Source of the DNA: Elusimicrobia bacterium GWC2_61_19
GTDB taxonomy: Bacteria; Elusimicrobiota; Elusimicrobia; Elusimicrobiales; UBA9959
DNA length: 52,747 bases
Assembly (NCBI GenBank): GCA_001799795.1
Contig: MGUD01000013.1
Coordinates: 40,553 to 93,299, forward strand
Direction of reading: 5' to 3'
A program made the translations under genes and the position numbers. Each line of letters opens with the position of its first letter. The first letter of the stretch is position 1. Shown here piece after piece: positions 7,614 to 18,328 of the stretch. The notes beneath the pieces were generated by a model that had not been told where the DNA came from, made no database searches, and worked only from the letters and a program-made list of their open reading frames with translations.

Positions 7614-7642
7614 TTGACTTTCACTTTGTCTTCTGCAAGAAT
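7614..7642 (+). promoter_or_regulatory. Predicted promoter of the AT-rich orphan gene
   Basis: TTGACT (7614-7619) and AAGAAT (7637-7642) have a 17-nt spacer. The -35 is 5/6 and the -10 is 4/6 to consensus. The expected start near 7649 would leave a leader of about 49 nt before the ATG at 7698, which has an AGGAG 7 nt upstream. Confidence 0.45.
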
Positions 7643-7697
7643 ATTAAAAGTGCAAGGGCCATTTACAAATCACGTCTTCCTACCTAGGAGCTATGCA

Positions 7698-8399
7698 ATG
7701 CCGTTTATGTTAATTTTATTTTTTTTGCCTTCTATCTGCTTCGCTGCAACAAATCCTTTCGAAATACCGGCAGTTAAGTCCTACAATTCCAAACTGGAAC
7801 TGACTCTCCAATCCAAAAATCGACAGTCCATTGAACCCTTATTTACAAAGGCAGAGGAGGCAAGCCATGACTTAGCACCAATAATAGAATCCATGGATCG
7901 ATCAACTTTTGAGAAGCTGCAAAGCCAATTACAGGGCATTATTCTAAGGCGCACTGAAGTTTTAGTGGCTGAGCCGGACCGCGATTTCTTTTTAAAACTT
8001 AGCGTCGAAAAAGGCACTAAGGTCGACAGGTCATTTTTCACACTTTCAGTCAAAACTAAACCTGGTGGTTGGCCTGTCTACATAAAGCAACAGACCGATT
8101 ATAGCGGATGCGTGAGATATGGAGAAAACACATTAGTCAATTTATACGAAGAATGGGGTAGGTTTGCTAAGGAATTCCGTAAAAGTTATCAAACTCATAC
8201 AAGCAGTGAAATTACACGCATAGGCACAGAGTTAACCAATGCAACTTGTGCATGTGATGGGAAAGAGTCCGCAATCTCAGAGTTTAAAGCTTTCATCACT
8301 GCATTTCCAACTTCCCCTATTTCCAAAAAACTGGCAGATCGGATTGCCGCCATCGAAAATGGGAAAAGCGATATAAGATTTAACTGCATTTCGGGGTAA
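7698..8399 (+). CDS. AT-rich secreted protein of unknown function
   Basis: I do not recognise this 233-aa protein. From the ATG at 7698 (AGGAG 7 nt upstream) it starts with a hydrophobic stretch ending in a signal-peptidase-like ICFA-ATN site, so it is probably exported. The first residues lack the usual Lys/Arg, which is atypical for a signal peptide. A longer TTG-started frame from 7614 has no SD. The mature part is mostly helical and charged, with four Cys (SGCVRYG, a CACD pair, FNC near the end). Base composition is clearly lower in GC than every neighbour, and codons are A/T-ending. Together with its private promoter, its terminator and flanking repeat elements, this suggests recent acquisition. 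Confidence 0.75.
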   Translation: MPFMLILFFLPSICFAATNPFEIPAVKSYNSKLELTLQSKNRQSIEPLFTKAEEASHDLAPIIESMDRSTFEKLQSQLQGIILRRTEVLVAEPDRDFFLKLSVEKGTKVDRSFFTLSVKTKPGGWPVYIKQQTDYSGCVRYGENTLVNLYEEWGRFAKEFRKSYQTHTSSEITRIGTELTNATCACDGKESAISEFKAFITAFPTSPISKKLADRIAAIENGKSDIRFNCISG

Positions 8400-8421
8400 A
8401 TACTTAGTGTTAAGTCGATTT

Positions 8422-8453
8422 AACCGCCGGGGAAGCCTGGCGGTTTGTTTTTG
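8422..8453 (+). terminator. Intrinsic terminator after the orphan gene
   Basis: AACCGCC pairs with GGCGGTT around an inner GG/CC and is followed by TTTGTTTTT. It starts 22 nt after the stop codon at 8399, on the plus strand. Confidence 0.85.
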
Positions 8454-8469
8454 ACTAGAAGACAAAAGG

Positions 8470-8624
8470 GGTGGTGGCGAGGGTATGGGTTCGGCGGGAC
8501 GGCCGGGCGGGCTGTCCCGAGCGCCCGTTGGGGAGGGGGGCCCCGCCATAATTTCCCCTGGCGGGGGGAACCGCGCAACGGTTCCCTGCAGTCCGGGCGA
8601 GCGGGATAGCCCGCCCGGTCGGCC
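8470..8624. repeat. GC-rich structured intergenic element sharing a core with 31941-32071
   Basis: It begins with GGTGGCGAGGGTATGG (8473-8488), identical over 16 nt to the complement of 32055-32070 and 15/16 to 31942-31957. Imperfect inverted arms follow at 8501-8527 and 8593-8624 (GGGCGGGCTGTCCCG against GGGCGGGCTATCCCG), with inner hairpins such as GGAACCG-CGCAA-CGGTTCC. It fills the gap between two convergent genes and contains no plausible reading frame. It is probably a dispersed REP-like element; a bidirectional termination role is possible. Confidence 0.6.
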
Positions 8625-8634
8625 AACACTAACT

Positions 8635-10029
8635 CTACCTTAGGTTCCTGGCGAAGTATTCGAAGGCGCGGGCGAAGGGCTCGGGGGGGGCGCTGAGGAC
8701 GCCGGCGCCTACCTGGCCTATGCCGGCTTTCTTGTGCGCTACGCCGGTGTCTATGAACGGCAGGATGCCGGTGCGGGCCGCCTTGATAACGTCTATGCCC
8801 GTGGGCGTGCCGCGGAAGTTGAGATACGGGATCTTGTATATGTTGTTCTCACCTACGGTGATCTCGTACATCGCCAGCGTGTAGTTCACCGCGTCCGCCG
8901 CCGTGCCGCCCACGAACTGAACTATGGCCGGCGCCGCCGCAATGGCAAAGCCGCCCAGGCCGTTGGTCTCCGTAATAGCCGAGTCACCGATGTCCGGGTT
9001 GGCGTCCGCCTTGGTGTAGCCGGGGAAATAAAGAGCGTCCGGCACGGGGGCCGGGCCGGTGAACCACTTGCCGCCGGTACCGGACAGCTGCACGCCGAAG
9101 TCCGTGCCGTTCCTGGCCATCACCACCACCAGACTGGAATCCTTCACCCCGCGCCCGGCGTCCAGCGAGGCCTTGGACAGCGCCATGGAAAGATTCAGGA
9201 AGAAATGGTCGTTGCCGTTTATAAATTCCAGCACCTTGGCCGCGGTTTCAGTGTCGCGCGCCGTCTTTATTACGGCGGGCGCGATGGCCCGGTAGAAAAG
9301 CGAGGTGCCGGCGCGGTTGCGGTTGTGCACCTCGTCGCCCATATGCAGCGCCTGCGCCACAATGGTCTTCAGGTCGATACGGCCCAGGGATTCTATAGCG
9401 GCCTTGAGCGTGGGATAAAGCGCAGTCTCCATCCACTTCAGCCGCTCTATGACCTCGGGGGAATACGCGCCGTAGCGCAGCACCTTACCCAAGCCCTCGT
9501 TCTGCGTGGCGTAGGCGAAGTTTCCGGCCGCCTCGTTCTTCACGATAAAAACCGGCATGGAGGCAGAAATTATACCGGCCATCGGGCCAACGGCGCTGTG
9601 TTCGTGGCAGGGCGCGTACTTGATCTTGCCGGAAGCCGCGAGCTTTTCGGCCGCTTTCGGGTCTTTCGCCAGGCCTTCGTACATCAGTGCGGCCATGATG
9701 CCGCCGCGCATGGGGCCGCACATCCTTTCCCACGTTACGGGAGGGCCGGCATGCAGGATGAGGTCCTTCCTCATCCCGGGGATAACGTCGAGCGCCACGC
9801 CCATGCCGACCAGCGCCGGCTTGGCTTCCAGGACGCGGGCCAGCGCTTTTTCGTTGGCCTTATTTATGCGCGCGGCGTATTTGTCCGCCCGGGCGAAGAG
9901 CCCGGCCTCCGAAGTGAGCGGCGGCTTGAACTGCGCCTGCACGCTTTTTACGCCGGAGTCGGTGAGGCCCTGACGGAAAGATTCCAGCCCGATGTTCACC
10001 ACTTTAAGTTCGCTCTCAAAAAGTTTCAT
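8635..10029 (-). CDS. allG: DUF1116 protein, AllG-type carbamoyltransferase subunit
   Basis: Matches the DUF1116 / YlbE family, one of three subunits (AllF, AllG, AllH) of oxamate carbamoyltransferase. That enzyme interconverts oxalurate plus phosphate with oxamate plus carbamoyl phosphate in allantoin breakdown. Visible family features are the HAGPPVTWERMCGPMRGGI block near residue 95, the CHEHSAVGPMAG block near 140, MGDEVHNRNRAG near 230, and TETNGLGGFAIAAAP near 350. At 464 aa it has the expected length. A GGAG lies 5 nt before the ATG, and it follows fdrA by 12 nt. The family is clear. The true substrate here is unknown, and no carbamate kinase is encoded nearby. Confidence 0.85.
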   Translation of the reverse strand: MKLFESELKVVNIGLESFRQGLTDSGVKSVQAQFKPPLTSEAGLFARADKYAARINKANEKALARVLEAKPALVGMGVALDVIPGMRKDLILHAGPPVTWERMCGPMRGGIMAALMYEGLAKDPKAAEKLAASGKIKYAPCHEHSAVGPMAGIISASMPVFIVKNEAAGNFAYATQNEGLGKVLRYGAYSPEVIERLKWMETALYPTLKAAIESLGRIDLKTIVAQALHMGDEVHNRNRAGTSLFYRAIAPAVIKTARDTETAAKVLEFINGNDHFFLNLSMALSKASLDAGRGVKDSSLVVVMARNGTDFGVQLSGTGGKWFTGPAPVPDALYFPGYTKADANPDIGDSAITETNGLGGFAIAAAPAIVQFVGGTAADAVNYTLAMYEITVGENNIYKIPYLNFRGTPTGIDVIKAARTGILPFIDTGVAHKKAGIGQVGAGVLSAPPEPFARAFEYFARNLR

Positions 10030-10041
10030 AGGGTCTCCATG

Positions 10042-11595
10042 TTATTTCTTCGCGGCCAGCCGGATTATCTCGCCGGCCAGGCGGCAGGCCCCGGCGTTGG
10101 AAGGCATCACTATCACGCCGGCGGCCTCCAGGCCTTTTACCACTTTGAACCGGGCCTGCGGGTCGGTCTCCGTGCCGGTGACGGAGGTCACTATCGACAG
10201 TTCCTTGTTGTGGATGAACGCCTCCACTATCGCGGGCAGGATATCCTCCAGCGGCTGCAGGTTGGCGCCGTAGCCCAGCACCAGGTCCAGTAGCAGCACG
10301 GAGACCTCCGGTTTTTTCGCTTCGGAGATTATCATCTTGTTGCGCAGGCTGAAGTCTATCATCGGGTGCGGCCGGCCCACAGTGAACTCGTCCTCGCCCA
10401 AATCTATCACGGCGTGGCCGGAGAGCTTCAAGGAATCCTTCAGTTTGAACTTCTTGTCGAGAGGCGCGTTGGAGAACACCTCGCCCGAAAACTCGGGCAG
10501 TATAACCTGGGCCTCGCTGACGAAAGTGCCGCCGGAGAAAAGGCCGCGCAAGCACGTGGACCTTTTCTTCTTCGCCGCTTCGCGCCTGGCCAGTTCCTCG
10601 GCCTTAAGGTTCATGTCGTAGATTATCTCGCGCGCCTTACCCAGCTTCCAGCCCTTACCCAGGCAGACGGCCTTGTAGGCGGCCTCCTCCAGCGTCCGGG
10701 CGGGATAAAAGTTCTCTTTGAGCTTCTCTTTGATCTCGCCGCCGAGGAAAACGGCCACTACGGGCTTTTCTATTTTTGTAATTTCGGCTGTGATCTTTTT
10801 AAGTATGGCGGGATGGGGGGGCTTGGAGACGATCAGCAGCACTTCCGTGGCGGGATCCGCCGCCAGCATTTTAAGCGCCTGGATAAGGGTCAGCGCGCCC
10901 ACCTCTATTTTCACGTCGCGCGAGCCGGTGCCGATGGCCTGGGAGATGCCTGCGCCCTCGTTGGAGATAAGGGTAGTCACCTCCTGCAGGCCGGTACCGG
11001 AAGCCGCCACCACGCCGATATTCCCGCGGCGCACGGAATTGGCGAAAGCTATGGGTGCGCCGTTGATGATGGCCGTGCCGCAGTCCGGGCCCATTACCAG
11101 CAGCCCCTTTTTAAGCGCCGCCCGCTTCAGGGCCACCTCGGTCTCCACCGGCACGTTGTCGGAGAAGATCATCACGTTCAGGTCCTTCTCCAGGCACTCG
11201 GCGGCCAGCGCCCCGGCGAAACGGCCGGCCACGGAAATAACGGCGAGATTGGCGCCCTCCAGAGTTTTGACCGCGTCGGCCAGGCCCGCGGCTTTCCTGT
11301 CAGTGCCGGCCTGCGCCTGCGCCGGTTTCATATTGAGCAGTTCTTCGGCCGCCTTCAGCGCGGCGTCGGCGTCGGCGGGAGTGCGCGCACTGACGGCTAT
11401 GGCCAGGTCGCTGTCGCCGGCCCTGAGTATTTCGGGCGTAAGCAGGCCGGAGGCCTTTATGATGCCCTTGTTCTCTTTGGTGGCCATCACCACGGCGGAG
11501 TCGATAACCCCGGGCACGGCGTTAAGTTTTTTGGCGACCTGCATCAGCGAGACGGAATCGAAATAGGCGCCCTTTTTAATAATGGTCTTTATCAT
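10042..11595 (-). CDS. fdrA: FdrA / AllF-type carbamoyltransferase subunit (succinyl-CoA-synthetase fold)
   Basis: 517 aa, related to the alpha/beta subunits of succinyl-CoA synthetase. The N-terminal half has an ATP-grasp-associated Rossmann core with VMGPDCGTAIINGAPIAFAN near residue 170 and VVAASGTGLQEVT near 205. The C-terminal half shows GLFSGGTFVSEAQ, GRPHPMID and LLLDLVLGYGA, all typical of FdrA. In E. coli the fdrA/ylbE/ylbF products form the oxamate carbamoyltransferase. Here the same three families are adjacent in the order allH-fdrA-allG. An AGGA precedes the ATG. The catalytic call as a carbamoyl-group phosphorolase is family inference. Confidence 0.88.
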   Translation of the reverse strand: MIKTIIKKGAYFDSVSLMQVAKKLNAVPGVIDSAVVMATKENKGIIKASGLLTPEILRAGDSDLAIAVSARTPADADAALKAAEELLNMKPAQAQAGTDRKAAGLADAVKTLEGANLAVISVAGRFAGALAAECLEKDLNVMIFSDNVPVETEVALKRAALKKGLLVMGPDCGTAIINGAPIAFANSVRRGNIGVVAASGTGLQEVTTLISNEGAGISQAIGTGSRDVKIEVGALTLIQALKMLAADPATEVLLIVSKPPHPAILKKITAEITKIEKPVVAVFLGGEIKEKLKENFYPARTLEEAAYKAVCLGKGWKLGKAREIIYDMNLKAEELARREAAKKKRSTCLRGLFSGGTFVSEAQVILPEFSGEVFSNAPLDKKFKLKDSLKLSGHAVIDLGEDEFTVGRPHPMIDFSLRNKMIISEAKKPEVSVLLLDLVLGYGANLQPLEDILPAIVEAFIHNKELSIVTSVTGTETDPQARFKVVKGLEAAGVIVMPSNAGACRLAGEIIRLAAKK

Positions 11596-11602
11596 AATGT
11601 CC

Positions 11603-12433
11603 TTATTGGTCCTTCCAGGAGAAAGCGTCGAGCAGGGCGAAAACCAGTCCGGAGCAGAAATCCGCCCCCGAGGTATGCCCGCTTTCCAGGGCCGCCTTCG
11701 CCGCCGCCGGCAGGTCCTTGCCGCCCTTTACCGACAGGGCCCGCATGAGCCGGCCTATCTTGGCGTTAACTTTTCCTTCATAAGAGGCCTGCAGAAAGTT
11801 ATTGGAGATCAGGTTCTTCCCGTCGGCGTTGTAATATACCAGCTCGAGTTTAGCCATAACGTCGAAGCGCAGGTTCAGCACGGCGTAATTGAAACCGGCC
11901 AGCATGCCGCTGAGGAAATCGTCTCCGGAGGGGGTGAGGCCGAGACCGAGCCCCCGCATGGTCCGCGCGCCGCGCCGGTAATCGCCGGCCTTGAAACTGG
12001 CGACGGCCTTCTTGAACCGGGCCAGCAGATGCTTGTCGAAAGTGCGGGCGAAATCCTTCTCCAGCTCCGATGAGAAAATAAAGGCCAGGCTTTTAGGCGG
12101 GGCGCCGGTCGCGAGCAGGCGGGCCAGCGCCAGGGTATTGGAGAGCACGACTTCCGGGTCGGCGTTGACTTCCGGGATGCCGGAGGCGTAAAGAGAGTCG
12201 GTTTCCTTGCGCAGGCGGTTCTCGTCCACGTAGAAGTAGAACCTGGAGGCGCGCAGGCGCCTGGCCCCGAGCGGCAGCTGTTTGAGCACCAGGTTGAGCG
12301 GGCCGGCGCCGGTGCGCGGCGGGACAAGCGAGACTATCAGCTTGCCTCGGCGGAAGTTTATGGCGTTGGCGAACGCCGAGTGCAGGCGGTAATCGCCCTC
12401 GGGAATGCTGTCGCCGTATGAGATCAGGTCCAT
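11603..12433 (-). CDS. allH: DUF2877 protein, AllH-type carbamoyltransferase subunit
   Basis: 276 aa of the DUF2877 / YlbF family, the third subunit of the AllFGH oxamate carbamoyltransferase. The family hallmark GLGLTPSGDDFLSG lies near residue 160 and a second motif, GHTSGADFCSG, near the C-terminus. The ATG at 12433 sits one base after the stop codon of the upstream amidase gene, so translation is probably coupled. The frame runs further upstream, but only inside that amidase gene, so I reject the longer form. There is no clear SD of its own. Confidence 0.85.
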   Translation of the reverse strand: MDLISYGDSIPEGDYRLHSAFANAINFRRGKLIVSLVPPRTGAGPLNLVLKQLPLGARRLRASRFYFYVDENRLRKETDSLYASGIPEVNADPEVVLSNTLALARLLATGAPPKSLAFIFSSELEKDFARTFDKHLLARFKKAVASFKAGDYRRGARTMRGLGLGLTPSGDDFLSGMLAGFNYAVLNLRFDVMAKLELVYYNADGKNLISNNFLQASYEGKVNAKIGRLMRALSVKGGKDLPAAAKAALESGHTSGADFCSGLVFALLDAFSWKDQ

Positions 12434-12434
12434 A

Positions 12435-13196
12435 TTACTGCCAGGGGAAGCTTTTTCTTTCGCCGAGGAACGGGAAGCGTTCACGGGTTTTGGACACCAG
12501 GTCGCGGTCCAGCGGCGTCGCGGCGGCAAAAATACCCTCGGCCGTGCCGCAGTCCAGCACCGTCTTGCCCAGCGGGTCGTAGCAGACGGAGTTGCCGGAA
12601 TACTCTATCTTGCCTTCCATGCCGACACGGTCGACGCCGATGCAGTAGGCCTGGTTCTCCACGGCGCGGGCGCGCAGCAATGTCGTCCACTGCTCGGCGC
12701 GGCGCATAGGCCAGGCGGCTATCACAAGGTAAACGTCGGCGGAGGGGGCCTTGTTCCAGAACAGGTAGGGGAAGCGCAGGTCGAAGCAGACCGCCGGCAT
12801 AACGCGCAGGCCTTCCATGCCGAACAGTTCCTGCTTGGTGCCGGCCTGGTAATGCTTGTCCTCTCCGCCGAAGGCGTAGAGGTGGATCTTGGAATAGGTG
12901 TTTATACGGTTGCCGCGGCGGTCCACGGTTATCAGGTTGTTATACCCCTTCTCGACGCCGCCGAAAGAGATGTTGATATTATTCTCCGCGGCAAGCCCGG
13001 AGAAAAAAGCCCGGTCGGAATCGTCCAGCTCGGAAACGGCGGTGTTCATGGTAAAACCGGACAGCGTCATTTCGGAGAACACCAGCCAGTCTGCCCCGCC
13101 CAGGCGCTGGCAATTCTCGACGAGGGCCTCTATCCTGCTCTTATTGGCCTCTTTGTCTTCCCACTTGATGTCGTACTGGCACAGGGCAATTTTCAT
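12435..13196 (-). CDS. Nitrilase-superfamily hydrolase, omega-amidase-like
   Basis: 253-aa carbon-nitrogen hydrolase. The Glu-Lys-Cys catalytic triad is visible: E42 in VFSEMTLSGF, K103 in YSKIHLYAF and C137 in AVCFDLRFPYLF. The CFDLRFP context resembles omega-amidase / YafV / Nit2 enzymes that hydrolyse terminal amides such as 2-oxoglutaramate. Beta-ureidopropionase-type chemistry would be an alternative in this context. It lies between the molybdenum subunit gene (12 nt gap) and allH (1 nt gap), with AGGAG before the ATG. It is clearly part of the catabolic operon, and its substrate is probably an amide formed by the upstream enzymes. Confidence 0.88.
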   Translation of the reverse strand: MKIALCQYDIKWEDKEANKSRIEALVENCQRLGGADWLVFSEMTLSGFTMNTAVSELDDSDRAFFSGLAAENNINISFGGVEKGYNNLITVDRRGNRINTYSKIHLYAFGGEDKHYQAGTKQELFGMEGLRVMPAVCFDLRFPYLFWNKAPSADVYLVIAAWPMRRAEQWTTLLRARAVENQAYCIGVDRVGMEGKIEYSGNSVCYDPLGKTVLDCGTAEGIFAAATPLDRDLVSKTRERFPFLGERKSFPWQ

Positions 13197-13208
13197 CGGG
13201 CTCCTCGC

Positions 13209-15608
13209 TTATTTACCGCCGTTCTTGACCGCCAGGGCCACTTTTTCCTTGGTGACCGGCATGGACTTTATACGCACGCCCAAAGCGTCCGCTACCGCGT
13301 TGGCGATCAGCGGCGCGCAGGGGATCATGGTGTGCTCGCCCACGCCACGCGCGCCGTAGGGCCCGTCGGGCTGGGCCACCTCTATGATTATCGGCACCAC
13401 TACGTCGGGCATATCCATGGCGGTGGGGATCTTATAGTCGGAGAAGTTGGCGTTCAGCAGCTTCCCTTTTTCGCTGTAACGCATGTCCTCGTAGAGCACC
13501 GTGGCGAAGCCCTGCATAAGTCCGCCCACTATCTGGCCGCGCACCAGGTCCGGGTTGATGGCTTTGCCGCAGTCCACGGCCAGCGCCACCTTTTTAATTT
13601 TCATCTTGCCGGATTCCCTGTCCACCTCCAGGATGATGCCGGCCGAGCCCGTAGTGTAATGCACGTTCGGGTGGCCGCCCTGCCCGGTCTCCGGATCGCT
13701 GATGGCCGAGGCGAACTCGGGCATGAACACGCCGGAGCCCATGATAGGCCCGCCCTTGAAAGTGTGGTCTTCGGCCTGTATGCCGTTGATGACGAAGTCC
13801 TTGAAAGGCAGCGCGAAGTCCGGCTTGGTGCGGCATTTAACGCATTCGTCCTGAAGGTACAGAGTGCTCTTGTCCAGGCAGTGCACACGCTGCACCAGAT
13901 CGAAAATGCGCTCGCGGGCCTCGAGGGCCGCGCGCTTGACGGCGTTGCCGCAGCCCCAGGTCACGTGCGAGCCGACGGTCTGCCACTCGTATGGGTTGCG
14001 GTCGGTGTCCGGTGTCTCCACGCGGATCTTGGTCACCGGCAGGGCCAGCACCTCGCCGGCGATCTGCGCCATCACGGTAAGCAGGCCCTGCCCTATCTCC
14101 ATGCCGGAGACCAGGATATTGACGCTGCCGTCCTCGTTGAACTTCAGGAAAGCGCTGGAACTGGCGTTGGGCGGCATGGCGGGGGATTTCCAGAAGCAGA
14201 CCAGGGCCTTGCCTATGGCCTTCTTCGGGTCTTTGGACTTTTCCTTCACACCCCATTTAATTTCTTTTTCCACCCTCCCTATGGCCTCGCGTATGCCGTT
14301 GGGATTCATGTGCGCGCCGTAGGGCAGGGTGTCGCCCTCCTTGATGGCGTTCTTCTTGCGGAACTCCACCGGGTCCAGACCCAGCTGAACCGCCATGCGG
14401 GTTATATGCGACTCCAGCCCGAAGAGGAACTCGGAGTAGCCGAAACCGCGGTAGGCGCCGCAGGGCGGCAGGTTGGTATAGGTGCACATCGAGTCGACGC
14501 TCAGGTTGTCGACCTTGTAAGGACCGCTGGCCGACAGGCCGGCCGCGTTGACCACATTGGCGCCGTATTCCACATAGGCGCCGGAGTCCCAATGCAGCTT
14601 AAAGTCCAGCGCGGTTATCTTGCCCGTCTTGGTGGCGCCCATTTTGATCTTGGCCGTAACGCCGAGGCGCTGGTAGGTGTTGTAGAACTCCTGCGCGCGG
14701 TTCCACAGCAGCTTTACCGGGCGGCCGGGCACCGCTATGGCGAGCGCGGCCGCGATGATCTCCATGGTGACGCCGGCCTTGCCGCCGAAGCCGCCGCCGA
14801 TATAGGTGCTGATCACGCGCACGTCCTTATGGCTAAGGCCGAAAGCCTTCAAGGTCTCGGCGAACACGTGGCGCTGCGTAAAGGGGGACTGCGAGGAGGT
14901 CCACATCGTCAGCCGGCCCGACGCGTCATAAAGGCCGACGGCCGAATGCGGCTCGATGGCGCAATGCGCGTAGCGGGGGACAGTATACGTATCTTCCAGC
15001 ACCAGGTCCGCGTCCTTGAAACCTTTGGCCAGGTCGCCCTTGCGGATCTTGCGCCAGTGCGCGATATTCGTGCCCGGCTTGGGGAAGAACCACGGCACAT
15101 GGGTATAATCCTTGAGATCGGGGTGCACCAAGGGGGAATCCTTCTCTAAAGCCTTCACGGGGTCCATCACCGCCGGAAGTTCTGCGTATTCCACCTTCAC
15201 CAGCGCGGCGGCGCGCATGGCCGTCTTCGGGTCGGTGGCCACCACGGCGGCCACCTGTTCGCCGACGAAGCGCACGGTGTCGGTGGCGAAAACGTAACGG
15301 TCGTTCATATAGAGGCCGAACTTCTGCGTGAAGTTGCGGCCGGTCACCACCTTCACCACGCCATGCACTTTCTCGGCCTTGGAGGTATCGATGGCTTTGA
15401 TCTTCGCGTGGGCGTGGGGACTTTCCACCAGGGCGGCGTAGAGCAGGGCGGGGCCGAATTCCAGGTCGTCGGTATACTTGGCGGCGCCTTTTATTTTTTC
15501 CCAGCCGTCTATGCGCAGCACGGATTTGCCGACGACCTTCAGTTCTCCGTCCGCGGGCCCGGCTTTCACGCTCTTCTTCGGTTTAGAAATTGTTTTTTGA
15601 AGGTCCAT
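13209..15608 (-). CDS. Xanthine-dehydrogenase-family molybdenum hydroxylase, Mo-binding large subunit
   Basis: 799 aa with the a/b hammerhead domain (about 25-135) followed by the molybdopterin-binding domains. Motifs seen are IGGGFGGKAG (about 280), the active-site Arg loop AYRGFGYSE (about 395), GMEIGQG (about 510), and the C-terminal GARGVGEH containing the catalytic Glu that abstracts the substrate proton. It lacks the AYRCSFR loop of form I CO dehydrogenase. It is therefore a hydroxylase of the xanthine, nicotinate or related N-heterocycle type rather than CoxL. It needs the FAD and 2Fe-2S subunits encoded just upstream. No XdhC-type cofactor-insertion gene is in the window. The substrate is unknown. 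Confidence 0.93.
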   Translation of the reverse strand: MDLQKTISKPKKSVKAGPADGELKVVGKSVLRIDGWEKIKGAAKYTDDLEFGPALLYAALVESPHAHAKIKAIDTSKAEKVHGVVKVVTGRNFTQKFGLYMNDRYVFATDTVRFVGEQVAAVVATDPKTAMRAAALVKVEYAELPAVMDPVKALEKDSPLVHPDLKDYTHVPWFFPKPGTNIAHWRKIRKGDLAKGFKDADLVLEDTYTVPRYAHCAIEPHSAVGLYDASGRLTMWTSSQSPFTQRHVFAETLKAFGLSHKDVRVISTYIGGGFGGKAGVTMEIIAAALAIAVPGRPVKLLWNRAQEFYNTYQRLGVTAKIKMGATKTGKITALDFKLHWDSGAYVEYGANVVNAAGLSASGPYKVDNLSVDSMCTYTNLPPCGAYRGFGYSEFLFGLESHITRMAVQLGLDPVEFRKKNAIKEGDTLPYGAHMNPNGIREAIGRVEKEIKWGVKEKSKDPKKAIGKALVCFWKSPAMPPNASSSAFLKFNEDGSVNILVSGMEIGQGLLTVMAQIAGEVLALPVTKIRVETPDTDRNPYEWQTVGSHVTWGCGNAVKRAALEARERIFDLVQRVHCLDKSTLYLQDECVKCRTKPDFALPFKDFVINGIQAEDHTFKGGPIMGSGVFMPEFASAISDPETGQGGHPNVHYTTGSAGIILEVDRESGKMKIKKVALAVDCGKAINPDLVRGQIVGGLMQGFATVLYEDMRYSEKGKLLNANFSDYKIPTAMDMPDVVVPIIIEVAQPDGPYGARGVGEHTMIPCAPLIANAVADALGVRIKSMPVTKEKVALAVKNGGK

Positions 15609-15651
15609 ATTTACCTCTCTTATCCCGCCTCTGCAAAGTTCCGGACCGCCC

Positions 15652-16044
15652 TTACTTCTTCCCGGCCGGCTGCGCGGCGCAGGCGGTCATATTGAAGCGC
15701 ACGGGGGCGGGGACTTTGCTCGAACCGGCCCCGAAATAGCCGCCCTGCGCGCAATGGCCCGCAGCTATCGGCTGGGCCTCTATCTTGACCTGGTCCAGCA
15801 CCATGTTGCCCGGCTCCCCGCGCCAGTACCTGCGCACCACCGCCTTGACCGGGGCATAGCCCATAAAGCCGTCGTTCACCAGCACCTGGGCGCCGGCGGG
15901 AGCTGTTATAACCTCTATGTTTTCTTCAACGAACGGCCCGGTCTCCGGCTCGACGAAAGGGCTGCCGCCGCGTTTCATCCCGCCCTGCGGCATGGCGCAG
16001 GCGGCAAGCAGAACCGCGGCACTTATCAATATCAAGTTTTTCAT
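15652..16044 (-). CDS. Small lipoprotein encoded inside the Mo-hydroxylase operon
   Basis: 130 aa with a classic lipobox: a short charged start, a hydrophobic core and LAAC at about residues 12-15, so Cys15 would be lipidated. The mature part has APAGAQVLVNDGFMGYAPV, which resembles a PEGA-type beta module, and three further Cys. A GGAGAGG precedes the ATG. It is encoded between the 2Fe-2S and Mo subunit genes, 24 nt and 43 nt from them, and is co-directional. Its role is unknown. Mo-hydroxylase operons usually carry no lipoprotein here, and that position is the interesting point. Confidence 0.82.
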   Translation of the reverse strand: MKNLILISAAVLLAACAMPQGGMKRGGSPFVEPETGPFVEENIEVITAPAGAQVLVNDGFMGYAPVKAVVRRYWRGEPGNMVLDQVKIEAQPIAAGHCAQGGYFGAGSSKVPAPVRFNMTACAAQPAGKK

Positions 16045-16068
16045 AACCTCTCCTGCCCCGATGAATAT

Positions 16069-16536
16069 TTACTTACCCTTGGCCGTTTCCTCTATGGCCG
16101 CCACTATCGGCTCGTAGCCGGTGCAGCGGCAGAGGTTGCCGGCTATGGCTTCCTTTATATCGTGCGTAGTGGGCTTGGCGTTCTTCTCGAGCAGCTCGGT
16201 GGCCGACAGGATCACGCCGGGCGCGCAGAAGCCGCACTGGAAAGAATTCTTCTCGTGGAATTTCTTCTGGAGCTTCTGGGTCCATTTGCGCGACCCGGCG
16301 CCCTCGAGGGTGACGATCTCCGTCCCGTCCGCTTCCACCGCCAACGCCAGGCAGGAGCGGATGGTCTTGCCGTTCAGGAGCACGGTGCAGGTGCCGCAGT
16401 CGCCGCGGTCACAGCCCACCTTGGGGCTCTTTATGCCGAGGCGCCCGCGCAGCACGTCCAGCAGCACGTCGCTGGGCTCCACGTCCAGGGCCACCTTCTC
16501 GCCGTTCAGACTGAAATTTATCCTGTGCATTTTCAT
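16069..16536 (-). CDS. Mo-hydroxylase 2Fe-2S subunit
   Basis: 155-aa small subunit carrying two [2Fe-2S] clusters that pass electrons from the Mo centre to FAD. The plant-ferredoxin-type N-terminal cluster ligands are C42, C47, C50 (GCDRGDCGTC) and C62. The second, helical-domain cluster uses C101, C104 (QCGFCAPG) and C136, C138 (NLCRCTGY). All eight ligands are present. A GGGGG lies 5 nt before the ATG. It sits 20 nt after the FAD subunit gene. Confidence 0.95.
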   Translation of the reverse strand: MKMHRINFSLNGEKVALDVEPSDVLLDVLRGRLGIKSPKVGCDRGDCGTCTVLLNGKTIRSCLALAVEADGTEIVTLEGAGSRKWTQKLQKKFHEKNSFQCGFCAPGVILSATELLEKNAKPTTHDIKEAIAGNLCRCTGYEPIVAAIEETAKGK

Positions 16537-16556
16537 ATAGACCCCCTGTACCGTCC

Positions 16557-17450
16557 TTACGCGATATTCTCGGTGCCGTACTTCGGCCCTTTGCCGAACA
16601 GGCGGGCCACCGCTTTTTCAAGAACGCGGCCCAGCATCACCTGCGTCATATGCAGGCGGTATTCCCTGGAGGACCGAATATCGCTGATGGGGGACACTTC
16701 CTGCAGGATGGTCTCTTTGGCCCTGGCTACCAATTTGTCGCTCAGTTTGTTGCCGTTCAGCACCGCCTCGGTTTTGGGGCAGCGCGCGGGCTTGGGGCCA
16801 AGGGCGCAGACGGCCAGGCGGTAGGTGTTGTCTGCGAAGGCCAGCGCGGCGATACCGCCCTGCGCCAGGTCCTCGCCTTCGTAGCGGGAAAGCTTCATAT
16901 AGCAGCCGGCGTGCTTTTTAGCCGGCAGTTTCATCTCCACGGCGGTAACTATCTCGTCGGGGGCCAGCACGGTCTTTTTGGGCCCCGCGAACCACTCGGC
17001 GATCGCTACGCGGCGCTCGCCCCTGATGCTGCGGGTGAGCACTTCGGCGTCGTAGACCGCCAGCACCGGCGCGGAATCGGCGGAAGGCACGGCGGAACAG
17101 ATATTGCCGGCCACGGTGGCGCGGTTGCGCACGCCCACCGAGGCGACCGTCAGCGAAGCTTCCCAGAGCAGGGGGAATTTGGCCTTTACCAGCGGGGAGT
17201 CGATCAGGTCCGCGAAAGTGACCAGCGCGCCTATATGCATGACGTCGCCCTTGAGGGTGAAGCCGGCCAGTTCCTCCAGCGCCTTTATGTCCACCACCAC
17301 CTCGGGGCGGGCCAGGTTCTCCTTGAGGTGCACCACCAGGTCGGTGCCACCGGCGAGCGCCCTGGCCTTCTCCCTGTAAAGCGAAAAGACATGGAGGGCT
17401 TCGTCCATGTCTCTGGGCTTGACGTATTCGAACTCCGTGGTGATCGGCAT
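16557..17450 (-). CDS. Mo-hydroxylase FAD-binding subunit
   Basis: 297-aa medium subunit. The FAD_binding_5 domain shows ALAGGTDLVVHLKE near residue 35 and VGVRNRATVAGNICSAVPSAD near residue 106, the usual FAD-contacting segments. The C-terminal CO_deh_flav_C domain (about 180-290) follows, including SRYEGEDLAQGG and DIRSSREYR. It completes the three-subunit molybdenum hydroxylase. A GGAGG lies upstream of the ATG. The electron acceptor (NAD, ferredoxin or other) cannot be deduced. Confidence 0.94.
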   Translation of the reverse strand: MPITTEFEYVKPRDMDEALHVFSLYREKARALAGGTDLVVHLKENLARPEVVVDIKALEELAGFTLKGDVMHIGALVTFADLIDSPLVKAKFPLLWEASLTVASVGVRNRATVAGNICSAVPSADSAPVLAVYDAEVLTRSIRGERRVAIAEWFAGPKKTVLAPDEIVTAVEMKLPAKKHAGCYMKLSRYEGEDLAQGGIAALAFADNTYRLAVCALGPKPARCPKTEAVLNGNKLSDKLVARAKETILQEVSPISDIRSSREYRLHMTQVMLGRVLEKAVARLFGKGPKYGTENIA

Positions 17451-17481
17451 ATTTCGCCTCCAGGCTGGTGATCGCTGCGAA

Positions 17482-17503
17482 GGGCGGGGGGAAACCCCGC
17501 CCC
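17482..17503. other. Strong intercistronic hairpin between cyclase and FAD-subunit genes
   Basis: GGGCGGGG pairs perfectly with CCCCGCCC around a short GGAAA-type loop. No T-run follows on the minus strand, so it is unlikely to be an efficient terminator. It may mark an mRNA processing or stability point that separates expression of the first gene from the Mo-hydroxylase genes. Confidence 0.5.
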
Positions 17504-17512
17504 CGTTCCGGG

Positions 17513-18328
17513 TCAGGCCGTCCAGGCCACTACGCGGCCCATGGCCGACTCCAGTTCTATTCCCTTGAGGGGGAAGAAACCGAGCCAGCAGCGCTTATTG
17601 GAAAGCTTGTCTATCTCGCCGCCGACGTTCTCGGCGTGGACCAGGCGTTTGGGGAACAGCTTCAGGTGCATCACCTGGTAGTAGATATCCTGCGGGAACA
17701 TCTCGTCCCATTTCTTGCCGTAGTTGTTCAGCAGCTTGTTCTCGGCTTCGACAAAAAGCTTCGGATGCCAGTTGCGGATGATGGTGTTCATGGGATGGTC
17801 GGCGGAACCGCAGTCCACGCCTATCCACTTGAACTTCATGTCCAGCGCCCACTTGTGGAAGCGGGGGCCGGGCCCGGGATGCTTGCAGAAATAACGCACC
17901 TCGTCGCAGGTCCCCTTCTCGTACCAGGCGTACTTGTGATAGCCGGTATTGATGATGAGGATGTCGCCCTTGCGGATGTCGGCGCGCTTCATCAGCAGCT
18001 CGGGCTCATAAAGGTCGTAATCGCCCACGTCCTTGGAGATGTCGACGACTACGGCCGGCCCGGTCCATTCCTTCATCGGCACCTCGCCGATGGTGCGGCC
18101 GGCGCTGTAAAAGTGTATTTCCCCGTCCATGTGGGTGCCCACGTGGTTGGAGGTCGTCATTATCTGGCCGTTGGCGCCCTGCCCCATATGGGCCCCGGCT
18201 ATGCGCTTGAAATACTGGAGCTGCAGCGGCATATAGCTCGGCCACGGGGGCGTGTGGATGCTCAGGGGCTGGGTAAGGTCGTACATCTTGGCCTTATCAA
18301 GGAACTTTATAAAATCGTTAGGTTTCAT
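17513..18328 (-). CDS. Cyclase-family metal-dependent hydrolase (kynurenine-formamidase-like)
   Basis: 271 aa, first gene of the catabolic cluster. The hallmark metal-binding motif HxGTHxD is present as HVGTHMD (H62, H66, D68). GDILIINTGYHKY and a later IGVDCGSADHP segment fit the same fold. Members hydrolyse amide or ring bonds in formylkynurenine, isatin and related compounds. Beside a Mo-hydroxylase, an attractive idea is ring opening of a hydroxylated N-heterocycle; that is inference. A GGAGG lies 8 nt before the ATG. The operon continues into the FAD subunit gene 62 nt later. Confidence 0.85.
   Translation of the reverse strand: MKPNDFIKFLDKAKMYDLTQPLSIHTPPWPSYMPLQLQYFKRIAGAHMGQGANGQIMTTSNHVGTHMDGEIHFYSAGRTIGEVPMKEWTGPAVVVDISKDVGDYDLYEPELLMKRADIRKGDILIINTGYHKYAWYEKGTCDEVRYFCKHPGPGPRFHKWALDMKFKWIGVDCGSADHPMNTIIRNWHPKLFVEAENKLLNNYGKKWDEMFPQDIYYQVMHLKLFPKRLVHAENVGGEIDKLSNKRCWLGFFPLKGIELESAMGRVVAWTA

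Follow-up and report, generated by a model that had tools for sequence, protein, structure and literature searches.

Comparison with described pathways

The oxidative pathway of pyrimidine degradation begins with hydroxylation of uracil at C6 to barbiturate by uracil dehydrogenase, proceeds through ring opening by barbiturase and ends with hydrolysis of the ureido acid to urea by ureidomalonase. A ureido acid is also the substrate of the Escherichia coli oxamic transcarbamylase AllFGH, which operates with the carbamate kinase AllK in anaerobic allantoin degradation and reversibly converts oxalurate and phosphate to oxamate and carbamoyl phosphate (PMC11326118). Here we analyse a putative nine-gene operon in a 52,747-nucleotide stretch of DNA, called the window below, from the metagenome-assembled genome (MAG) Elusimicrobia bacterium GWC2_61_19 (contig MGUD01000013.1), in which all three AllFGH subunits are encoded in one unit with a molybdenum (Mo)-hydroxylase and a cyclase-family metal hydrolase. 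We consider it likely that this unit is a single nucleobase-catabolic module that yields carbamoyl phosphate. Its first two reactions would be those of the oxidative pathway, but its proposed ring opener belongs to the PF04199 metal hydrolases and not to the AtzD/barbiturase fold (Pfam and NCBIfam searches of the cluster proteins matched no AtzD-family barbiturase), and phosphorolysis to carbamoyl phosphate would take the place of hydrolysis of the ureido acid to urea.

Other described systems share parts of this arrangement. The module has the same three subunit families as the E. coli AllFGH/AllK system, and most of its relatives encode a carbamate kinase, but its AllF and AllG are 41–44% identical to those of E. 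coli, its AllG forms a clade of its own, allantoin genes are absent from the cluster, and the transferase genes stand next to those for a Mo-hydroxylase and a cyclase. The cyanurate cluster on plasmid pSR8 of Aminobacter sp. SR38 likewise couples a ring-opening amidohydrolase to AllFGH and carbamate kinase, although its hydrolase is AtzD-type and it has no Mo-hydroxylase; in our set of loci it occupies 8430–20849 of L065 and encodes cyanuric acid amidohydrolase AtzD, FdrA, DUF1116, carbamate kinase and DUF2877. The anaerobic reductive urate pathway of E. coli (XdhD, YgfK, SsnA, HyuA, YgeW and YqeA; PMC12507026) also combines a Mo-hydroxylase homologue, an amidohydrolase, a carbamoyltransferase and a carbamate kinase, but it is reductive, its transferase is the OTCase-fold YgeW instead of AllFGH, and its ring-opening enzymes are different.

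Gene content and catalytic residues

The putative operon comprises nine open reading frames (ORFs), all on the minus strand at 8635–18328, with intergenic gaps of 1–62 bp, and is flanked by proS/ispG on one side and rimP/nusA on the other; the coordinates and the co-directional layout agree with a first-pass annotation of the same DNA. Three genes encode the Mo-hydroxylase: the FAD subunit (16557–17450; FAD_binding_5, 7e-48; CO_deh_flav_C, 2e-16), the 2×[2Fe-2S] subunit (16069–16536; Fer2 and Fer2_2) and the molybdopterin subunit (13209–15608; MoCoBD_1/2 and Ald_Xan_dh_C; motifs GGGFGGKAG and YRGFG), the last a proposed uracil 6-hydroxylase (uracil dehydrogenase). All 71 relatives compared keep the eight Fe-S cysteines (42, 47, 50, 62, 101, 104, 136 and 138), and Glu758 of the Mo subunit is invariant in 57 of 57. 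With its Mo, FAD and 2×[2Fe-2S] subunits, eight cysteines and catalytic glutamate, the enzyme is a complete Mo-hydroxylase, as had been read from the sequence before, and belongs to the xanthine oxidase family. Neither of two curated models was reached, that of xanthine dehydrogenase (XDH; XdhA, 508 bits, cut-off 780) or that of 4-hydroxybenzoyl-CoA reductase (538.7 bits, cut-off 994.55), the latter enzyme being the nearest solved relative of the Mo subunit. In at least 90% of the 57 module Mo subunits, GGGFGGK is followed by alanine instead of the XDH-type glutamate, which we take to be the purine-binding residue of xanthine dehydrogenase.

The proposed ring-opening amidohydrolase, a putative barbiturase analogue, is encoded by the cyclase-family gene (17513–18328; PF04199, 1.8e-32). 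Its metal motif, H62-x-G-T-H66-x-D68-xxx-H72, is invariant in 80 of 80 relatives, and its predicted model (predicted local distance difference test (pLDDT) 77) finds its matches among kynurenine formamidases and isatin hydrolases, so that motif and fold both place it among the isatin hydrolase-like members of PF04199. Isatin hydrolase opens a cyclic amide; it and kynurenine formamidase share fold and HxGTHxDxxxH motif with the cyclase, but they are 15–19% identical to it in the fold match and have other gene neighbourhoods.

The transferase subunits are AllH (DUF2877; 11603–12433, with its ATG at 12433; PF11392, 2e-21), AllF (FdrA; 10042–11595; NF004760, 493 bits, exceeding the cut-off of 433) and AllG (DUF1116; 8635–10029; PF06545, 4e-98), the three families that the first-pass annotation had named. 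AllF is 40.7% identical to E. coli AllF and 43.1% to YahF, and AllG is 43.7% identical to E. coli AllG and 46.3% to YahG. When the module proteins are compared with their homologues from E. coli, Peptoclostridium and Aminobacter, 74 positions of AllG and 55 of AllF never vary. The remaining enzyme is a CN-hydrolase, probably of the omega-amidase (YafV) type (12435–13196; CN_hydrolase, 4e-35), a proposed malonamate amidase, for which the best NCBIfam model is PRK10438 (YafV; 143.7 bits, under the cut-off of 249). Its triad E42-K103-C137 is kept in 20 of 20 relatives, and the HxGTHxD and Glu-Lys-Cys motifs by which the two hydrolases had first been recognized both hold.

Conservation of the module across phyla

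Relatives were found by scanning genome contigs with the cyclase alone. The best 80 of at least 573 matches were examined; nearly all are from MAGs, and they represent Elusimicrobia, Cloacimonadota, Bacteroidota, Ignavibacteria, Zixibacteria, Kiritimatiellae, Lentisphaerae, Verrucomicrobia, Caldiserica, Bdellovibrionales, Eisenbacteria, Myxococcota and an Acidobacteriota bin. Although mis-binning of single MAG contigs is possible, the conservation pattern spans many assemblies and depends on no single one. In nearly all genus mates examined the entire block is syntenic and in the same genomic place, with cyclases 89–99% identical, and beyond the window's family the usual gene order is AllH-AllF-AllG-cyclase-FAD-FeS-Mo. 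About a dozen phyla share this core. Among 43 loci whose flanks are long enough, each located via the cyclase alone, the FeS subunit is present in 42 cases, FAD in 42, Mo, AllF and AllH in 39 each, and AllG in 37; wherever present, these genes share the strand of the cyclase. Such co-directional conservation argues for one functional unit and runs counter to the first refuting condition of the first-pass annotation, a gene set not conserved together in relatives. The operon described there, for which a search across genomes had been proposed, is no isolated oddity but a widespread module.

Module Mo subunits form one clade (support 97/98), separate from E. coli XdhA, the XDH paralogues of the genus and haloarchaeal enzymes. 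Module AllG proteins form another (100/99), outside which fall E. coli AllG and YahG as well as the homologues from Peptoclostridium and Aminobacter. In mirror-tree comparisons, co-variation is seen for several protein pairs of the module (for example, cyclase–Mo, rho 0.54; AllG–AllF, rho 0.61), but we do not read this as inheritance as one block, because the cyclase–AllF and AllF–Mo pairs show no co-variation.

Three accessory gene sets alternate beside the core, and no locus has two of them. In 19 loci, as in the window, the set is an omega-amidase-type CN-hydrolase. In 12 others a class III CoA-transferase is paired with an amidase-signature enzyme, and one truncated locus has the CoA-transferase only. 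A further 15 encode a GNAT-like protein, accompanied in some cases by a thiolase and an OB-fold protein, and one more has just the OB-fold protein. The nearest families to the CoA-transferase are CoA:oxalate (374 bits, cut-off 522) and succinate-glutarate CoA-transferases, both below cut-off. The alternation would make sense if the sets were different means of processing a single small dicarboxylic amide or acid. The GNAT-like protein of L099 (3931–4683) and its homologues in about 15 loci have no Pfam match and often have thiolase and DUF35 genes beside them; the predicted structure of this accessory protein (c9) had a pLDDT of 49, too poor for use.

Co-occurrence with carbamate kinase and permeases

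Pfam and NCBIfam searches of the cluster proteins revealed neither an allantoin gene nor a carbamate kinase in the nine-gene unit, in line with the first-pass annotation, but the kinase is encoded elsewhere, unlinked, in 22 of 25 genus genomes; it was not found in the window's own MAG (1.36 Mb, 66% complete). The only Protein Data Bank matches of the genus homologue are carbamate kinases. Genome-wide statistics were drawn from 199 Elusimicrobiota genomes, with a cyclase of at least 70% identity taken as the module (30 carriers, 169 non-carriers). Six Elusimicrobiota cyclases with 52–57% identity were rejected as module carriers, and the statistics were redone without them, because neither Mo nor AllFGH genes lie beside them. 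Carbamate kinase was present in 28 of 30 genomes with the module and 14 of 169 without it (P = 2e-21) and a UraA/RutG-type permease in 15 of 30 and 3 of 169 (P = 7e-12), while other NCS2 permeases showed no enrichment (P = 0.65); these P values ignore relatedness, and the permease types rest on E-value bands and on members tested individually. Outside the window's family the module has eight carriers, spread over four families, and every one of them encodes a carbamate kinase as well as a UraA-type permease. Since the genus also has a purine-type locus (XDH, SsnA-like proteins and a PreT-PreA fusion), the kinase and the nucleobase permeases may be shared between pathways.

That second Mo-hydroxylase locus, conserved in the genus, lies at 2399–17971 of L201 (G000:C16:6000-25999) and encodes an XDH, XdhC, MocA, two SsnA-like amidohydrolases and an 818-aa PreT-PreA fusion; it looks like a purine or dihydropyrimidine locus.

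Substrate and proposed pathway

Neighbouring genes offer clues to the substrate. A uracil/RutG-type permease adjoins the module in five loci (L131, L132 and L137 from Cloacimonadota, L140 from UASB270 and L092 from the Acidobacteriota bin), with scores of 339–389 bits for uracil/RutG models against 202–223 for xanthine models, and in L094 a dihydropyrimidinase gene (537.6 bits, cut-off 393) stands directly upstream of AllH. Among the related cyclases with 52–57% identity, one is flanked by a cytosine-deaminase-family gene (391 bits, cut-off 438) and a uridine phosphorylase gene (276.6 bits, cut-off 280.3; L211, 8963–11907) and another abuts a uridine-phosphorylase-family gene (L210, 8442–10041); neither has a Mo-hydroxylase or AllFGH adjacent. 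A haloarchaeal cyclase (45% identity) lies beside a Mo-hydroxylase, a cytosine deaminase and CodB (both above cut-off), and also a xanthine permease. The N-heterocycle that the first-pass annotation had left unspecified is thereby narrowed by gene context: the substrate is most likely a pyrimidine, with uracil the first candidate.

From these observations we infer the following reactions and their order. The Mo-hydroxylase would hydroxylate uracil at C6 to barbiturate, passing two electrons to a FAD-linked acceptor, and the cyclase would open barbiturate to ureidomalonate. Because ureidomalonate differs from oxalurate, likewise an acylurea, by one additional CH2, AllFGH would be expected to phosphorolyse it to malonamate and carbamoyl phosphate, as the E. 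coli enzyme does with oxalurate; the CN-hydrolase would then convert malonamate to malonate and NH3, and carbamate kinase, encoded elsewhere in the genome, would make ATP from carbamoyl phosphate. In other lineages the amidase would be replaced by the CoA-transferase and amidase-signature enzyme (malonate to malonyl-CoA) or by the thiolase-associated genes. The first-pass annotation had deamidation preceding phosphorolysis; its general logic, in which a ring is hydroxylated and opened and the product is then phosphorolysed to give carbamoyl phosphate, is supported, but the amidase most likely acts after AllFGH, since the opposite order would not suit ureidomalonate. The specific sequence from uracil through barbiturate, ureidomalonate and malonamate to malonate we judge, from gene content and context, to have an even chance of being correct.

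Just as finely balanced, in our estimate, is the broader proposal of a horizontally shared and previously undescribed pathway by which many uncultured anaerobes would ferment pyrimidine bases, using a Mo-hydroxylase as candidate uracil dehydrogenase, a new type of barbiturase, and AllFGH with carbamate kinase for ATP. We found no description of the module in the open-licence literature on DUF1116/DUF2877/FdrA, barbiturase, uracil dehydrogenase or Elusimicrobia pyrimidine degradation. If true, the reductive, oxidative, Rut and URC pathways of pyrimidine degradation would be joined by one that conserves energy, there would be candidate genes for uracil dehydrogenase and for a barbiturase of a second fold, and AllFGH would have a broad role beyond allantoin. 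The module would also point to nucleic-acid bases as food for candidate-phylum anaerobes of groundwater, sediment and digesters; a common yet unnamed gene neighbourhood becomes a testable pathway.

Several observations weigh against uracil catabolism. Non-uracil permeases also stand beside the module, AzgA-like in L213 and xanthine-like, purine-like or unassigned in L108, L123 and L125, and AzgA-type permeases track it genome-wide (13 of 30 against 0 of 169). Three of the six Elusimicrobiota genomes with a 52–57% cyclase keep AllG without a xanthine-oxidase-family Mo subunit. The haloarchaeal Mo-hydroxylase was rejected as an orthologue (about 25% identity, separate clade), no characterised uracil dehydrogenase sequence was found for comparison, and the unlinked carbamate kinase could serve another pathway.

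The non-uracil permeases bear on a purine alternative, in which the Mo-hydroxylase would act on hypoxanthine or another purine, the cyclase would open the six-membered ring, as xanthine amidohydrolase does in forming 4-ureido-5-imidazolecarboxylate, and AllFGH would phosphorolyse the ureido group. A carbamoyltransferase (YgeW) and a carbamate kinase also take part in reductive urate degradation by E. coli (PMC12507026). AzgA- or xanthine-type permeases adjoin the module in L213, L108, L123, L125 and haloarchaea, and the genus has its separate purine-type locus. We nevertheless think a purine substrate unlikely: the Mo subunits have alanine in place of the XDH-type glutamate, the product would be an aryl urea, unlike the acylurea oxalurate, the amidase or CoA-transferase step would have no obvious role, and the other purine-type NCS2 permeases are not enriched.

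The accessory CoA-transferase, nearest to the CoA:oxalate family, would instead agree with a route from hydantoin to parabanate, which the cyclase would open to oxalurate, the true AllFGH substrate in E. coli, with the resulting oxamate deamidated to oxalate; a dihydropyrimidinase/hydantoinase-family gene also adjoins or lies near the module. Uracil-type permeases, cytosine-deaminase-family genes and uridine phosphorylases are misplaced neighbours for such a route, no oxalyl-CoA decarboxylase was seen and module AllG stands in a clade apart from E. coli AllG, which leaves this route improbable. We give similarly little credence to hydroxylation and opening of another N-heterocycle (nicotinate-, quinolone- or indole-like), with the cyclase acting like isatin hydrolase: the cyclase model resembles isatin hydrolases and kynurenine formamidases, and 4-hydroxybenzoyl-CoA reductase is the nearest solved relative of the Mo subunit, but AllFGH requires a ureido product, and nucleobase permeases and pyrimidine enzymes are recurrent neighbours. 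A synthetic direction, from carbamoyl phosphate and an amide to a ureido acid, ring closure and reduction to a pyrimidine, is very improbable, for although carbamoyltransferases are reversible (assayed with oxamate and carbamoyl phosphate; PMC11326118) and Mo-hydroxylases can work as reductases (XdhD; PMC12507026), the associated permeases and carbamate kinase indicate uptake and catabolism.

Other features of the window and related loci

The one remaining gene of the operon, a small lipoprotein-like ORF (15652–16044, minus strand), may be accessory or unrelated; it is fast-evolving (50–75% identity) and confined to part of the genus, and we do not count it as core because it has no Pfam or NCBIfam family match and is missing from many relatives. 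A promoter and terminator scan gave signals no better than shuffles, and an RNA-family search of the window and seven loci found tRNAs alone and no riboswitch. The interval between rimP and AllG contains a 261-aa ORF on the plus strand (7614–8399) with no Pfam match. About 11 kb from the cluster and about 3 kb left of the window lies a dihydropyrimidinase/allantoinase-family gene (L189, 13427–14815; 372 bits, cut-off 393); many genus mates have it on the same contig as the module.

In a genome with a 52–57% cyclase, an aldehyde:ferredoxin-oxidoreductase-family gene adjoins AllG (L228, 6226–10940); it may or may not substitute for the missing Mo subunit. L229 encodes a 323-aa protein (8092–9063) between AllF and AllG with weak phosphoribosyltransferase similarity. 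On the E. coli plasmid pAPEC-O2-ColV, an AllG homologue, a carbamate kinase and a cytosine permease are encoded together (L198, 9992–14017), and AllG matches of this kind occur on many E. coli plasmids.

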